Origin: a virus
DNA length: 64,000 nt
Virus record (IMG/VR): IMGVR_UViG_3300036766_000548
Location: 1 to 64,000 of that record
Strand: one strand, 5' to 3'
The position numbers and the translations under genes are program-made. How positions within the stretch are numbered: the first letter of the stretch is position 1; the number at the start of each line of letters is the position of its first letter. Below, in pieces: positions 6,339-58,540 of the stretch. The notes under the pieces are model-generated. The model ran no database searches. It was not told the origin of the DNA and saw nothing but the letters and a program-made list of their open reading frames with translations.

Positions 6339-8816
6339 ATGCCCGAACAAATTGAAATAGACTTAAAGGGATTCTCAAAAAAGATAAATCCCAAGTTCAT
6401 TCCATTGATAAAGGATCGCCATCCATTACAAATAGTAGTTGGTGGTGCCAATAGTTCTAAATGTTTTGCCAAAGGCATGCAAATTGTAATGTATTCAGGT
6501 GAATTGAAAAATGTAGAAGATATCGTTATTGGTGATTTGTTAATGGGAATTGATTCAACTCCTAGAAAGGTATTAAATACAAATAATGGTTATGGGAAAC
6601 TATATAAAGTATACCAACACCGAGGAGATGATTATACAGTTAATGAAAATCATATTTTATGTTTGAAGAAAAGTAAAAGTTGCAATAGATATAAAGAAGA
6701 TGGAGATTATATAGAAATATCTGTTTCTGATTATTTGAATAAAAGCACAAGATGGAAAAGAAATTTTTTAGGATATAGGACTGGAATTGATTTCTCAAAT
6801 AAGGAAGTTTCTATCGATCCTTATTATCTTGGTTTGTGGTTAGGAGATGGTGATAAAAATAGATTGTCTATTACGTCAATAGATGATGAAATAATAGAAT
6901 ATATATATGATTATGCCAAGAAAATAGGCGAGCGTGTTTCAATGATAAATAAATATGGCTATAATATCAATCATATTAAATATTCAAATGAAGTAAAGAA
7001 AGAGATTGCTAATATTTTTGCTAATGGTATTGTTGGCCATGGTTGGAAAAAAGGAACATTGAGATTAGTATGTGATAAAACTGGAATAAGTAATAGAGTA
7101 TGTTATCAATGGCTGAAAAATAAATCATTCATTAAATTGGTGGAATATTATAAGAAGCATCCAAAAGAAATTGATTATGATATAATTGAAAAAGAAAAAC
7201 AACAGGAAACACTTTACAGTAAGTTTGTTGAATATAATCTATTTTACAATAAGCATATTCCTAATGATTATTTATATAATTCATATGATATTCGATTAAA
7301 GTTATTGGCTGGAATTATTGATACTGATGGAAGTATGAAGGCTAATTGTTATACAGTAATTCAAAAGGATGAAAAATTATCATTCCAAATAAAGTATTTA
7401 GCTAATTCATTAGGATTCAAGTGTTCAATAACTAAAAGAAAATGTGAATGTGTTAATAATGGAGTGATAGGCGATTACTATTCAATGTGTATTTCTGGTA
7501 ATACTGAAAAAATACCTTGTAGGATAAAAAGAAAGATAGTAAAAAATCAAAGTGATAGAAAAGATCATTCGGTAATAGGAATTGATATTATTCAAATGGA
7601 AGATGGCGAATATTATGGATTTACTGTAGATAAGGATAATAAAGTTTTACTATCTGATTTTACAATAACACACAATTCATATAGCTATGCAGAAAAGATT
7701 ATTTATCATACAATACGGGAAAAGTATTTCCGGTGTTTGGCTACACGAAAAGTAAAAAAGGATGTAAAGCATTCTGTCTACGATCAATTGCGCGAAGTAT
7801 TGAATAGGTATAAATTAGAAAACTATTTCACTTACAATAATACTGAAAGTAATATTGTTTGCAAGTTGAATGGAAATGATATATTAGGCGTAGGTCTTGA
7901 TGATGTAAACAAATTAAAATCATTCACCAATCCTACATTCTTTTGGGCAGAAGAAGCTGATCAAATGACTCCAGATGATATTGAGCAATTAAGTCTACGA
8001 TTGCGTGGCCCTGACTATTGTTTCTTTCAAGGTGGATTGACATTAAATCCAATCAACGCCCAGCATTGGATCAAGTTAAAATATTTTGATCATAAGAATG
8101 ATGGGTGGATAACACATCATTCTACATATAAGGATAATCAATTCCTTTCGCCTAAAATTATTCAAAGAATGGAAGCGATAACTGATCCATATTATATAAA
8201 AGTATATGTGAATGGAGAATGGGGAATATTTACAAATGGTGTATTCTCAAATTATATAATAGAGGATTTTGATTATACAGAAAACGATTTAGAAGATGTT
8301 TGTTATGGAATGGACTTTGGATTTACCCATGCCCAGGCGATTGAGTGCGCTGGATTCAAGGATGGCGAATTATATGTATTTGACGAGTTGTGGGAAAAGG
8401 GGAAAACAAACAATCAATTCATGGATGATGCGAAAGACTATTTCGGTGATAAATTATATGATATGAGGATGACATGTGATTCCGCCGATCCTGACAAGAT
8501 AATAGAATGGGATAGAAGTGGATTTAGAGTAGAATCCGCGAAAAAGGGCCCAGGATCAGTGCGGTTTGGCATTGAATATTTGGTTGATAAAAAGATACAT
8601 ATACATGAAAGCAAGTGTGCCAATATCGCAAAAGAGATTCAACAGTTCAGGCGCAAAGAAGACAAGAATGGAAATGTTACTGAGGATTTTATAGAAGTGA
8701 ATGATGATGGAATAGCGGCATTGCGATATGGTACTGAATATATTTGGTCAAATACAAATCAAGTTTTTTATGATGGCACTAATGATAAATGGTCATTAAG
8801 CGAATTGGGATTATAA
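6339..8816 (+). CDS. terL: Terminase large subunit with in-frame intein
   Basis: 825 codons. Removing an intein (residues 42-446) gives a ~420-residue terminase of the PBSX/SPP1 type. Splicing would rebuild the Walker A region as GGANSSK-SYSYAEK. Further marks are FFWAEEADQM (Walker B with catalytic Glu) and the nuclease half beginning YGMDFGFTHAQA, with CDSADPDKI and NDDGIAALRYG supplying acidic metal ligands. The protein translocates and cuts concatemeric DNA during head filling. Without protein splicing the ATPase site is split, so packaging would depend on splicing. It is followed 14 bp later by the portal gene, whose RBS is AAGGAG. Confidence 0.93.
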   Translation: MPEQIEIDLKGFSKKINPKFIPLIKDRHPLQIVVGGANSSKCFAKGMQIVMYSGELKNVEDIVIGDLLMGIDSTPRKVLNTNNGYGKLYKVYQHRGDDYTVNENHILCLKKSKSCNRYKEDGDYIEISVSDYLNKSTRWKRNFLGYRTGIDFSNKEVSIDPYYLGLWLGDGDKNRLSITSIDDEIIEYIYDYAKKIGERVSMINKYGYNINHIKYSNEVKKEIANIFANGIVGHGWKKGTLRLVCDKTGISNRVCYQWLKNKSFIKLVEYYKKHPKEIDYDIIEKEKQQETLYSKFVEYNLFYNKHIPNDYLYNSYDIRLKLLAGIIDTDGSMKANCYTVIQKDEKLSFQIKYLANSLGFKCSITKRKCECVNNGVIGDYYSMCISGNTEKIPCRIKRKIVKNQSDRKDHSVIGIDIIQMEDGEYYGFTVDKDNKVLLSDFTITHNSYSYAEKIIYHTIREKYFRCLATRKVKKDVKHSVYDQLREVLNRYKLENYFTYNNTESNIVCKLNGNDILGVGLDDVNKLKSFTNPTFFWAEEADQMTPDDIEQLSLRLRGPDYCFFQGGLTLNPINAQHWIKLKYFDHKNDGWITHHSTYKDNQFLSPKIIQRMEAITDPYYIKVYVNGEWGIFTNGVFSNYIIEDFDYTENDLEDVCYGMDFGFTHAQAIECAGFKDGELYVFDELWEKGKTNNQFMDDAKDYFGDKLYDMRMTCDSADPDKIIEWDRSGFRVESAKKGPGSVRFGIEYLVDKKIHIHESKCANIAKEIQQFRRKEDKNGNVTEDFIEVNDDGIAALRYGTEYIWSNTNQVFYDGTNDKWSLSELGL
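6462..7676 (+). mobile_element. Intein with LAGLIDADG homing endonuclease inside TerL
   Basis: 405 residues from Cys42 to Asn446 of the terL product. The N-terminal splice block begins CFAKGMQIVMYSGE with block B TVNENH. The C-terminal block ends FTITHN followed by Ser, the expected HN/S splice junction. Two LAGLIDADG-like helices, LGLWLGDG (about residue 164) and LAGIIDTDG (about 322), mark a homing endonuclease. The insertion lies exactly inside the ATPase P-loop, a classic intein target because it cannot be lost imprecisely. All splice residues seen are intact, so it is probably active. Confidence 0.92.
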
Positions 8817-52144: not shown

Positions 52145-52267
52145 TTAATTCTCACAGATAATAGCGAGTTGACCACAAGCAGCACCGGCGTTAATTTCGG
52201 CTTGTGTCGCGATTGCAATGGCATAATCATAACCAGACTTCTGTAATTCTTCCTTAATGCGTTCCAT
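52145..52267 (-). CDS. RlmN-type C-terminal methyl-carrier segment as a separate 40-aa protein
   Basis: Begins MERIKEELQKSGYDYAIAIATQ and continues with EINAGAACGQLAIICEN. In RlmN and Cfr the C-terminus reads roughly ExxxxFxxxLxxxG...RGxDIDAACGQLA, where the Cys carries the methyl group to the RNA. Here the same AACGQLA is on its own protein, with AAGGAG and ATG, overlapping the end of the adjacent radical SAM gene by 14 bp. The matching core enzyme (53376) lacks this end. It may complete that enzyme in trans. Confidence 0.65.
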   Translation of the reverse strand: MERIKEELQKSGYDYAIAIATQAEINAGAACGQLAIICEN

Positions 52268-53069
52268 ATATTTCTCCTTCTACTAAAATAGGATCGTCGA
52301 TAAATCCGTTCCTCAAAGAATGAATATCAAGTACTAAATTACCCGCAATGCATTTCATTTGATTATTTACTTCACGTTGATATATTTTTGGATATGGATA
52401 TTTGTTGTATATAAAATTAGCACATGAACAACCGTCCCTTTCCATTGATATTGTTTTTCTATAACCAATTAAATCATTTATTGCGACATAATGATTGACA
52501 CTATAATCGTTTACTTTCATAAGACCCACAAATCCAAAATCCAATACTCCTTTATTTGAATAATATTCTATATATTCATTTATTTTTTCGTTTGAATCAA
52601 CAAGTCCTTTTTGTAGAACGCATGATAAATGCAATTTATCATTCCCATAAATATCAATCATTGAATCAATCTCGAAATCGTTTATTGAATGCCTACTTAA
52701 TGAAATACTATTCACTAATTCATTATTCAACTCGATGCCCTTTCTAGTGTTTATAATTATAAACATTTCAGGGAAAAATGACCGTATCAATTTACATGCC
52801 TGTTCTACCTCATTAGTAAAATATCCTGGCTCACCTCCAGTAAAAGAAACCCTGTTTATATTGATATTTTTGTCTTTTATGCTAGTCAAAATATAAGACA
52901 AAAGGTCCAAAGAAAATACATCCTTTTTATCTGAACTATATACACAAAATGGACACCCCATATCACAATAATCAGATACGCGAATAAATAAATTAACATA
53001 AGGATCGCAATATTTTTGAGATAAACAATCAAAATTTTTTGTCTTTACAACATCTATCCAACTAGACAT
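52254..53069 (-). CDS. Radical SAM protein, cassette enzyme 1 (271 aa)
   Basis: CDMGCPFC at residues 35-42 is the CxxxCxxC cluster-binding loop, and FTGGEPGYF (GGEP 78-81) binds SAM. The rest shows a partial TIM barrel with extra Cys near the C-terminus (DGCSC and MKCIAGN). It begins 3 bp after the Cys-rich peptide gene and overlaps the 40-residue gene. Its reaction is unknown. A role in modifying the neighbouring peptide or an RNA is plausible. ATG 53069 chosen over an in-frame TTG upstream. Confidence 0.82.
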   Translation of the reverse strand: MSSWIDVVKTKNFDCLSQKYCDPYVNLFIRVSDYCDMGCPFCVYSSDKKDVFSLDLLSYILTSIKDKNININRVSFTGGEPGYFTNEVEQACKLIRSFFPEMFIIINTRKGIELNNELVNSISLSRHSINDFEIDSMIDIYGNDKLHLSCVLQKGLVDSNEKINEYIEYYSNKGVLDFGFVGLMKVNDYSVNHYVAINDLIGYRKTISMERDGCSCANFIYNKYPYPKIYQREVNNQMKCIAGNLVLDIHSLRNGFIDDPILVEGEIYGTH

Positions 53070-53071
53070 TT

Positions 53072-53362
53072 TTAGCAATGCCCACTACCACAACCACAAC
53101 CACCGCTACTACCGCCTCTATTTATATCACTAGAATTAATAATCTTTTTTTTACTCATGTTTTTAATAGGCTTGTCCTCACAATATTTATTATCGATAAA
53201 ATGAATTAGTAAATCAAAACACTCATTAGATATGGCGCCGTCAATATGGAGCTGATTTATTCTTTTATACACATTTATTATACCATTTGTTTTTATGCTC
53301 TCTTTTATACTCGGTAGCCAGAATTCCATTTCTTCGTTCAATTCTCTTTCATTTGATTGCAT
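53072..53362 (-). CDS. Cys/Gly-tailed protein, candidate radical SAM substrate (96 aa)
   Basis: MQSNERELNEEMEF starts a helical, acidic 80-residue region, followed by a GGSSGGCGCGSGHC tail. The N-terminal part could be a leader or docking domain and the tail a modified core, like a RiPP precursor. An alternative is a metal-binding tail. RBS GGAG is 9 bp upstream of ATG 53362. It lies between two radical SAM genes in a tight operon (stop to next ATG 2 bp). No family recognised. Confidence 0.7.
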   Translation of the reverse strand: MQSNERELNEEMEFWLPSIKESIKTNGIINVYKRINQLHIDGAISNECFDLLIHFIDNKYCEDKPIKNMSKKKIINSSDINRGGSSGGCGCGSGHC

Positions 53363-53375
53363 TTTTAGTACTCCT

Positions 53376-54161
53376 TTATATGATATTAATGCCTTGAATG
53401 GCACCATTTCCCATATTGTTTTTCTCAGAAATCGTATTTTTATTTATTGGTGATAACTTGATAAAAAATCTATTCTTGTCAAAAAGTCTCTTTAATTCTT
53501 CTATATCAAAATCGCCTTCTTCAACCAATGTCATGTTAATAGTTGTTTTAAGATTGCTTTTGGTCCGTATATTGCTTAATTGTTCTAGTGTCATTTTATT
53601 TTTATATGGAATAAGCCAATTTCGTTTTTCATTTTTAAGAGAATGCACGGATATTTGAAGGGTTATGTTGTCCTTTATCCAAGAAAAATCAGAACCAATA
53701 ATGCCTATCGTAGAAATATAATGATGAGTTTTAGGATATTTTTCATCTATTTTAAATATAGCATCCTTTACATTATCTATATTTAGGAACGGTTCACCCA
53801 TTCTAGTATAATTTATCTTGTGTTCAAATGCTTCTTGAAAACGTTCAGTTCTTTTAGATAAAACAAATTCAACTTGTTCCACAATTTCTTGCGATGTAAG
53901 GTTCCTGTATTTTTTCATTGCACCCGTAGCACAAAATTTGCATCTAACTGGACATCCCGACATCGTAGAAACGCCAATCATCCAACGTTCTTTTCTACTC
54001 CCTATTTTTGTATCATGAAGTATATTTTGTTTTTGTCCAATAGCATCTTTAGTATATGAAGGCAAAAATGTATCGGTTACCTCAATAAGAAAATTATCTT
54101 CTGTTTTTAAGGCATATACAATTCCATTTGCGAATTCTTTATGCTTAATTTCTGTCAACAT
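53376..54161 (-). CDS. RlmN/Cfr-like radical SAM core lacking the C-terminal end (261 aa)
   Basis: GCPVRCKFCATG (C70, C74, C77) is the cluster motif. RMGEPFLN (121-127), ISTIGI, LQISVHSLKNEKRNWLIPYKNK and INMTLVEEGDFDIEELK follow the RlmN order, with FIKLSPINKN last. RlmN normally continues ~60 residues with a methyl-carrying Cys (Cys355 in E. coli). Here the stop comes first. The Cys118 partner seven residues before the cluster (E. coli numbering) is Gly63. So by itself it is not a standard rRNA methylase. Confidence 0.8.
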   Translation of the reverse strand: MLTEIKHKEFANGIVYALKTEDNFLIEVTDTFLPSYTKDAIGQKQNILHDTKIGSRKERWMIGVSTMSGCPVRCKFCATGAMKKYRNLTSQEIVEQVEFVLSKRTERFQEAFEHKINYTRMGEPFLNIDNVKDAIFKIDEKYPKTHHYISTIGIIGSDFSWIKDNITLQISVHSLKNEKRNWLIPYKNKMTLEQLSNIRTKSNLKTTINMTLVEEGDFDIEELKRLFDKNRFFIKLSPINKNTISEKNNMGNGAIQGINII

Positions 54162-54251: not shown

Positions 54252-55226
54252 CTATTTTGTTATATTCCCTTGACCAATATCCTTTGCCTTATTATTATGA
54301 TCTATACAAACATCCAAACAATTTTTTCTGCAAATAAGATCGTTATAAGTATTTGTTTTTTCAAACCATATTTTTCTTTCTTGTCTAATTTCTTTAATAG
54401 ATTTCCCATAAACATTCCCAATAGCTTCGCCTTGCTCGCGCATATAAATTACACAAGGAAAATGTTTTCCATGTAAAATAACCATATCATCTTTTACTAA
54501 ATGGCATTTATTGCAATCGGTTTCTTTCATGCCTCTAACATGCCTTCCATTATTTATATTATTGATCCTATATTTCAATATCTTATATTTTGTTTTTACG
54601 TTTATATTCAAATAATGATTTGATTGTGCTGTAGGAATAATTCTAATATCTGATACTTTTAATTTAGTTGCAAATTCAATAATATTTTTCAATTCATCAT
54701 TATTTTGTTTGTCCAATACCACCCCTACAGTTACATAAGTCAATTTAGATAATTCTTTTATAATCATCGCTATATGCTCAAAATGAGAATTGGTCCCTGC
54801 CATAATATCGGCAGTAGAAGAGCAACAGGCATCTAGCGAAATTGAAAAATCATTTATTCCGGCTTTGTGTAATTGCTTATAATATTCTAATTCTGCCGAT
54901 CCATTTGTAGAAATAGCAATATGTTTAATACATTTTTTGCTTTTAGTGTATTGAACCAATTCTAATAAATCTTTCCATATAGTAGGCTCACCACCTGAAA
55001 ATCTTATATTATGTAAATTAGCAGAAGTCCAGATATCTACAATTTCTTTTGCTTGCTCTAAAGTTAAATCCCCTTGAAGGTCTTTTACTATCCCTCGGCA
55101 ATAAGGACATTTGAAATTACAACGATTAGTCAATATCAATTCACACCGTTGTAAATCACTTTCCCAAGAAACGTTTTTTGCCCTTTTATCGGAAAGAGTA
55201 TAAAATCCAATATCTTCAAGTTTCAA
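54252..55226 (-). CDS. Radical SAM protein with SPASM-like C-terminus, cassette enzyme 3 (324 aa)
   Basis: TTG start after AAAGGAG. CNFKCPYC (36-43) is the cluster loop and FSGGEPTIW the SAM-binding turn. The C-terminus has further Cys: TDCNKC, FPCVIY and CRKNCLDVC, like a SPASM/Twitch domain that holds auxiliary iron-sulfur clusters. SPASM enzymes modify peptides, for example in RiPP maturation. It lies between primase and the RlmN-like gene. This supports peptide modification, but the substrate is inferred only from neighbours. Confidence 0.82.
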   Translation of the reverse strand: MKLEDIGFYTLSDKRAKNVSWESDLQRCELILTNRCNFKCPYCRGIVKDLQGDLTLEQAKEIVDIWTSANLHNIRFSGGEPTIWKDLLELVQYTKSKKCIKHIAISTNGSAELEYYKQLHKAGINDFSISLDACCSSTADIMAGTNSHFEHIAMIIKELSKLTYVTVGVVLDKQNNDELKNIIEFATKLKVSDIRIIPTAQSNHYLNINVKTKYKILKYRINNINNGRHVRGMKETDCNKCHLVKDDMVILHGKHFPCVIYMREQGEAIGNVYGKSIKEIRQERKIWFEKTNTYNDLICRKNCLDVCIDHNNKAKDIGQGNITK

Positions 55227-57805: not shown

Positions 57806-58540
57806 TTAAAAACCTTTATAAACATAAAATATTCCATCCTTATCCCACATATATCCATAACCCAATTTCCAGATTTCCCAAACTTTATTAAAAAAATCAA
57901 TAGCTATTGAATCTTCAGAAATAATAGATGCGGCTGACTCTGCGGCTGACTCTGCGGCTGACCATGCGGCTGACCTTGCGGCTGACCTTGCGGCTGACCA
58001 TGTGGCTGACTCTGCGGCTGACCATGCGGCTGACCATGCGGCTGACCTTGCGGCTGACTTTGCGGCTGACTTTGCGGCTGACTTTGCGGCTGACCATGCG
58101 GCTGACTTTGCGGCTGACCATGCGGCTGACTCTGCGGCTGACCATGCGGCTGACCTTGCGGCTTCATAAGTATCAAACACTTTCCAATTTTCTTTTATCT
58201 CGCCATGATTATCAAACCATTTTACATTCTTGATGTCATTTATGAATTTCTGAGCATTCAACCACCATTCATTTTTAATATTACCTTTTGCATCATACCT
58301 TACGCCAGCAACACCAAAGCATTTTGCCATCTTATCCATATGGCCATCATTTATTCTTTTAGCAATCTGTACGGGAACCTTTTGCCAATTCTCATGGTGA
58401 GTACCAGCAATTCCATAATATTTTTCTATTGCTGAATGTCCGATAGCATCTTCAAATTCAAGTCCTTTGGCCTCGATGATGTCATCTTCAAGCCAATACA
58501 ATTTCCGTCCTACTGATACCCAAGAACAAAAATCGCACAT
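57806..58540 (-). CDS. Repeat-containing protein with (SAAx)19 tract, 244 aa
   Basis: The N-terminus (MCDFCSWVSVGRKLYWLEDDIIEAKGLEFEDAIG) and C-terminus look globular. Between them 19 consecutive four-residue units of SAAW, SAAE, SAAK or SAAR form a helix-like tract, encoded by 12-bp tandem repeats. The tract should be length-variable. The N-terminal sequence holds a CDFC pair. Function is unknown. RBS AGGAGG. Confidence 0.65.
   Translation of the reverse strand: MCDFCSWVSVGRKLYWLEDDIIEAKGLEFEDAIGHSAIEKYYGIAGTHHENWQKVPVQIAKRINDGHMDKMAKCFGVAGVRYDAKGNIKNEWWLNAQKFINDIKNVKWFDNHGEIKENWKVFDTYEAARSAAWSAAESAAWSAAKSAAWSAAKSAAKSAAKSAARSAAWSAAWSAAESATWSAARSAARSAAWSAAESAAESAASIISEDSIAIDFFNKVWEIWKLGYGYMWDKDGIFYVYKGF
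57929..58163. repeat. 12-bp tandem repeat, about 19 copies
   Basis: Unit TGCGGCTGACYN with variation at the last bases, continuous over ~230 bp. All three minus-strand frames and one plus-strand frame are open across it because no stop fits the unit. It encodes the SAAx tract and is a likely site of slippage-driven length change. Confidence 0.9.

Follow-up and report, generated by a model that had tools for sequence, protein, structure and literature searches.

The Cys-tailed protein and its operon

A small viral gene set tightly between radical-SAM genes raises the question of what its product is for, and in particular whether its short C-terminal tail is a peptide substrate of a neighboring enzyme, as an earlier note on this DNA had proposed. 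The gene lies in the window, here meaning the whole stretch of 64,000 nucleotides that was analyzed (positions 1 to 64,000 of IMG/VR record IMGVR_UViG_3300036766_000548). The virus record itself comprises 78,011 bases and contains DnaE-, clamp- and terminase-like genes, as judged by eye from the ORF list. The features of the cassette are:

53072..53362 (-): tailed protein, 96 aa, with a helical leader and a Gly/Ser/Cys tail that ends in Cys
53174..53362 (-): leader, residues 1-63, predicted three-helix bundle (AlphaFold model m8e47892f8f8c, pLDDT about 90)
53075..53116 (-): tail GGSSGGCGCGSGHC, residues 83-96, proposed site of modification
53371..53377 (-): ribosome-binding site of the tailed protein, AAAGGAG
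52254..53069 (-): rSAM_C, cognate radical-SAM protein of 271 aa with a Radical_SAM Pfam match, proposed tail maturase

The ORF of 96 residues holds up well. The AAAGGAG motif, a good ribosome-binding site, is found 8 nt 5' of the ATG at 53362, and the protein ends in ...DINRGGSSGGCGCGSGHC with Cys89, Cys91 and Cys96, just as first described. An alternative start gives a 111-aa version of the protein; this longer version is unnecessary. The tight flanking by radical-SAM genes is equally evident, with 13 nt between the stop of the RlmN-like gene and the start of the tailed protein and 2 nt between the stop of the latter and the ATG of rSAM_C (53069). Among the ORFs of at least 20 aa in all frames of the 64-kb window, the tailed ORF alone has at least three Cys and at least three Gly in its last 16 residues. 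The protein is unnamed by Pfam, PHROGs and NCBIfam, and a search for direct relatives in IMG/VR and the phage collection returned none, so rSAM_C was used as the search handle instead. The cassette is flanked by genes for a helicase, a primase, a GIY-YIG protein, DnaB and small proteins, and no protease or exporter was seen among these flanking genes.

Two further ORFs of the window deserve mention. The 244-aa protein encoded at 57806-58540 contains a long tandem repeat of the SAAWSAAK type, and the large-terminase-like ORF at 6339-8816 has an apparent intein at its P-loop (GGANSSK|C...HN|SYSY), as seen by eye.

Pairing of Cys-tailed genes with rSAM_C

The gene order of the window recurs at locus L004, where a 100-aa protein ending in DPCGYSGGGRSPC accompanies a radical-SAM gene that shares 31% identity with 52254-53069. 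Profile searches with rSAM_C yielded more phage loci, including those of phages of 634-735 kb, as well as bacterial loci. According to the ORF lists, a Cys-ending gene is located directly upstream of rSAM_C in 17 of the 20 distinct phage loci; measured against the background of Cys-ending ORFs in the collected loci (98 of 2926, about 3.3%), this corresponds to a binomial P of about 9e-23. Variants of the arrangement occur at L083, which has two tandem Cys-ending genes, one small gene further upstream of rSAM_C, and at L084, where the Cys-ending tailed gene is directly downstream. Typical phage tails end in DGCGGGSYRRSSC, DPCGRGGKTSNFSHC, SCGGGYSTPGC or SCGNHQSSNGRC, and some have the terminal Cys alone. 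Absence of the tail beside the same enzymes, which the earlier note named as evidence against a substrate role, was encountered in one phage lineage only (L024/L049/L078); the 735 kb genome of L024 carries a second rSAM_C beside a Cys-ending gene. In a tree of rSAM_C, in which the window sequence forms a long branch, the Bacteroidales and Clostridia sequences form clades, while Cys-tailed partners are spread over the remainder, on both sides of the deepest forks.

All three neighboring radical-SAM genes were examined individually as possible partners of the tail. The downstream rSAM_C alone qualifies, since the RlmN-like and SPASM-like genes occur widely without a tail gene. Numerous phages, among them the crAss-like Kehishuvirus and Moorella phage MTATph1, carry close relatives of the RlmN-like gene (up to 69%), mostly without a tail gene beside them; L004 was reached through these relatives. 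With the tail gene missing at seven split-RlmN loci, the RlmN-like gene was rejected as the cognate enzyme. The SPASM-like radical-SAM gene at 54252-55226 was likewise rejected, as the tail cassette is present at 1 of 58 of its loci. This single locus, L107, which was reached via another gene, carries the tail/rSAM_C pair too. The SPASM-like gene (L092-L142) is itself widespread in phages, with about 50 close loci, and is unlinked to the tail cassette.

Leader and tail of the tailed protein

In the AlphaFold models (16 relatives), residues 3-63 form three helices with a pLDDT of about 90 and the remainder is disordered. The helical character that had been assigned to the N-terminal 80 residues is therefore retained for residues 3-63 and lost beyond, with the modeled disorder extending over more than the last 16 residues. 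When the leader was searched against PDB folds, nothing matched (best E 2.2), and no known family or fold was matched that would place the protein in a known non-substrate family, the other observation that had been expected to speak against a substrate role. A leader-only HMM, built from the sister clade with the window left out, ranked the window protein first after the members among 4208 ORFs (E=0.0013). Homology between the window leader and the other leaders is weak, at this E-value and 12-25% identity.

Across the phage relatives, the residue of the tail that never varies is its C-terminal Cys. The earlier note had proposed to look for a strictly conserved tail next to a drifting leader, and the reverse is seen in most close pairs: leader and tail identities are 69 vs 43%, 62 vs 46% and 48 vs 30%, meaning that the tail drifts faster, its Cys excepted. 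In the close pair L026/L021, conservation of the tail is not below that of the leader.

The partner enzyme rSAM_C

All catalytic residues are kept in rSAM_C, and extra Cys residues are present. The CX3CX2C motif together with C14, C213 and C215 is common to 26-27 rSAM_C relatives, and C149 is nearly so (numbering of the 270-aa A11 sequence). The conserved extra Cys, a C-terminal CxC pair and one N-terminal residue, may hold an auxiliary Fe-S cluster. The enzyme scores far under every NCBIfam cut-off, and no SPASM domain was found in it by Pfam at E up to 1. Furthermore, no RRE-type (PqqD-like) Pfam or NCBIfam match was obtained in the neighboring proteins, and rSAM_C has ~30 residues before CX3CX2C. 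An RRE and a leader protease or exporter are common near radical-SAM RiPPs, but not universal, and many RiPP systems lack an RRE.

The rSAM_C model (pLDDT 86) aligns with MoaA, SuiB, viperin, SkfB, CteB and anSME with Z-scores of 14-17; loci from annotated phage records were left out of the structure-related alignments. MoaA and viperin act on nucleotides. With MoaA, SuiB, viperin and GDGT-MAS level, the fold comparison cannot choose between a peptide and a nucleotide substrate.

Bacterial versions

The operon in Clostridia and Bacilli (L054, L063, L064, L067) consists of the tailed protein, a HemW-like radical-SAM protein and rSAM_C. The tailed protein has 117-152 aa, and most of its tails are multi-Cys. 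The tail at L091 does not end in Cys and consists of three exact GHPACGNGYPSGGY repeats plus the start of a fourth; judging from the sequence, these triple repeats may be a sign of repeated substrate sites. The Bacteroidales partner of rSAM_C is larger (292-606 aa) and in most cases has internal DGPCHPEV and SCGEGKGPN motifs instead of a Cys end. Overall, rSAM_C is rare in bacterial genome surveys (at least 1 of 291, at least 1 of 198 and at least 2 of 296).

Two side observations concern these bacterial loci. The DGPCHPEV...SCGEGKGPN domain (L060:4097-5917; L051:2693-3955) is fused to variable N-terminal domains, which in L060 is tubulin/FtsZ-like. In addition, the Clostridia cluster of L054 encodes a second Ser/Gly/Glu repeat protein with WGES/GESR motifs (L054:6595-7014), adjacent to an ATP-grasp-like gene.

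Proposed role of the tail and alternative explanations

From its gene context, the Cys tail of the 96-aa protein is probably the substrate of rSAM_C, with a probability of roughly two in three. The original suggestion of a peptide substrate is thereby strengthened: one and the same radical-SAM family is accompanied by Cys-tailed proteins in distant phages and in some Clostridia and Bacilli, and L091 has core-like repeats. In favor of this role are the frequency and spread of the pairing, the L091 repeats, the better conservation of the leader than of the tail in most close pairs, and an rSAM_C that keeps its catalytic residues and extra Cys and aligns with the peptide-modifying SuiB, SkfB, CteB and anSME, among others. 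Counting against it are the equally good MoaA/viperin fold, the lack of any RRE, protease or exporter in the searches and flanking genes described above, the L024/L049/L078 lineage, the different Bacteroidales partner, the L026/L021 pair and the weak leader homology. The tailed protein and rSAM_C most likely constitute an undescribed phage-borne protein-modification system.

In such a system, the three-helix leader would dock on rSAM_C and the disordered Gly/Ser/Cys tail would enter the active site, where the 5'-deoxyadenosyl radical would modify it at or beside a Cys, the C-terminal one being of chief importance. The likeliest chemistry would be abstraction of a hydrogen from a tail residue followed by bond formation to the Cys sulfur, possibly aided by the auxiliary Fe-S cluster. 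The resulting thioether is a guess, and as the actual tail product it is possible but on the doubtful side. As no protease or exporter is encoded nearby, the modified protein probably retains its leader and functions within the infected cell.

Different roles for the tail have to be weighed against that of a substrate. It could be a redox or thiol-transfer swinging arm, of which the C-terminal Cys donates a thiol, a hydrogen atom or sulfur to rSAM_C while the true substrate is a nucleotide, an RNA or another protein. Some reductases have C-terminal, Cys-bearing flexible tails, which the Cys on its flexible Gly/Ser arm resembles, and such a function would agree with the C-terminal Cys being the one invariant feature, with an rSAM_C fold near MoaA and viperin, and with the NAD-salvage genes that often adjoin. 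However, the triple repeats of L091 without a Cys end, the multi-Cys tails of Clostridia and the other partner in Bacteroidales suggest alternative or repeated sites of modification rather than a catalytic arm, and a swinging arm is considered unlikely. An unmodified tail that acts as a metal-binding or Fe-S delivery arm, supplying the operon's radical-SAM enzymes with iron, zinc or a cluster, is quite improbable. The CGCGSGHC of the window does resemble a metal site and Fe-S enzymes adjoin the tail gene, but the tails of many relatives, such as L069 (SSYSRSSC), L079 (PAYRGC), L083 (FRSTTC), L068 (SYSGC) and L107 (VTNSRC), have a single Cys and no nearby His; single-Cys tails cannot alone form a metal site, which argues against a metal chaperone. 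Moreover, the partnership is limited to rSAM_C and does not extend to Fe-S enzymes generally. Lastly, unrelated small genes mix in phage operons and leader homology is weak, as would be expected if the tailed protein had a structural or regulatory role in the phage and came to lie beside a radical-SAM gene through chance operon shuffling. Against this, the pairing is not tied to one branch of the rSAM_C tree but occurs on every side of it, in jumbo and smaller phages as well as in Clostridia/Bacilli, which makes a chance neighbor highly improbable.

If the tail is indeed the substrate of rSAM_C, a family of radical-SAM-modified proteins, not represented in Pfam, PHROGs, NCBIfam or PADLOC, would be common to a few gut bacteria and to phages with sizes between less than 100 kb and 735 kb. 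Such a family would also provide a compact two-gene system (about 0.3 + 0.8 kb) in which novel chemistry of the tail and a novel strategy of phages could be probed. No description of a Cys-tail/rSAM_C system or of a split RlmN was found in the literature, and a jumbo-phage review does not mention radical SAM (PMC7824862).

Comparison with known systems

A short precursor conserved beside a radical-SAM enzyme, a criterion for radical-SAM RiPPs, is present at 17/20 phage loci and at the Clostridia/Bacilli loci. Sactipeptides and ranthipeptides are radical-SAM thioether RiPPs, and their systems (SkfA/SkfB, CteA/CteB, PapA/PapB) are similar in having a small precursor gene beside a radical-SAM gene and a Cys-containing, Gly/Ser-rich C-terminal core; the rSAM_C barrel also aligns with SkfB and CteB. 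In contrast to these systems, no NCBIfam maturase model comes near its cut-off for rSAM_C and no SPASM, RRE, exporter or protease was seen, and the tailed protein has a folded leader of ~63 residues, carries its Cys at the extreme C-terminus and is phage-encoded. In mycofactocin biosynthesis, the radical-SAM enzyme MftC acts on the extreme C-terminal residues of its precursor, Val-Tyr. Targeting of a C-terminal end would be a shared trait, but here the end is Cys and the match to the mycofactocin model is weak.

HxsC of the HxsB/HxsC His-Xaa-Ser system (TIGR03977) is among the best weak profile matches of rSAM_C, but its cut-off of 267.9 bits is not reached (window 24, L026 50.7) and the tailed proteins lack His-Xaa-Ser repeats. 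Prokaryotic viperins are likewise weakly matched by profile (cut-off 180 bits; window 26.5, L026 52.4) and similar in fold (Z about 16.5), whereas rSAM_C has extra Cys and a tailed partner. The HemW-like protein of the bacterial rSAM_C operons best matches the STM4012 model, which recalls the STM4012-family/HemW-like cassette; however, it scores 137/380 bits, under the cut-off, and it was not found beside rSAM_C in the phage loci.

The split RlmN around the cassette

The tail cassette is enclosed by the two parts of a second system:

53376..54161 (-): RlmN-like core, first half of a split RlmN, without the C-terminal Cys motif and with Gly at the Cys118 position
52145..52267 (-): 40-aa ORF MERIKEELQKSGYDYAIAIATQAEINAGAACGQLAIICEN, C-terminal piece of the split RlmN with the AACGQL Cys

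When joined, the products of these two ORFs align to RlmN structures over 57-296, including the C-terminal AACGQL, of which the Cys carries the methyl group in RlmN. The 40-aa ORF, considered as a second precursor peptide, was rejected as such, being the RlmN C-terminus. A two-piece RlmN is also present in Kehishuvirus, MTATph1, Vibrio phage D479, Yersinia phage P778 and Pectobacterium phage Arno18. Kehishuvirus and MTATph1 carry the split RlmN alone, and no cultured phage with the tail cassette was encountered. Ten phage loci have both systems, and in 9 of them the RlmN halves enclose the tail cassette. The resolving Cys118 (E. coli) is replaced by Gly in all 19 distinct split cores, while the unsplit protein of phage Arash retains the Cys. 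Besides the window, split RlmN with Gly at this position was noted at L016, L017, L028, L029, L150 and L151.

The split raises a clear question: why does a methyl Cys on a separate peptide go with a missing resolving Cys? The titles of PDB entries 5hr6 and 5hr7 indicate that C118A RlmN can be trapped in a cross-link with tRNA, and by analogy the 40-aa peptide could, speculatively, stay on its target. Two unusual products would then come from the operon: besides the Cys-tailed protein, modified by the radical-SAM enzyme encoded with it, there would be an RlmN in two pieces whose methyl-Cys peptide could stay covalently on the RNA target. This combined outcome is distinctly unlikely; if true, phages would make peptide-RNA conjugates during infection.

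The NAD-salvage genes of these regions, identified by Pfam as NAMPT, NAPRT, NadR-like and PnuC genes, adjoin split RlmN or tail cassettes at L010, L014, L019, L021, L022, L026, L069 and L084. Phages reconstitute NAD against host defence, according to a published study (PMC12774641). A CYFCYQ-motif radical-SAM gene and a small methyltransferase occur in or beside split RlmN at L002, L005, L008, L009, L083 and L085, of which L083 and L085 carry both cassettes. In Vibrio phage D479 (L028:4929-5210), the Cys-bearing RlmN piece is duplicated in tandem within one ORF.
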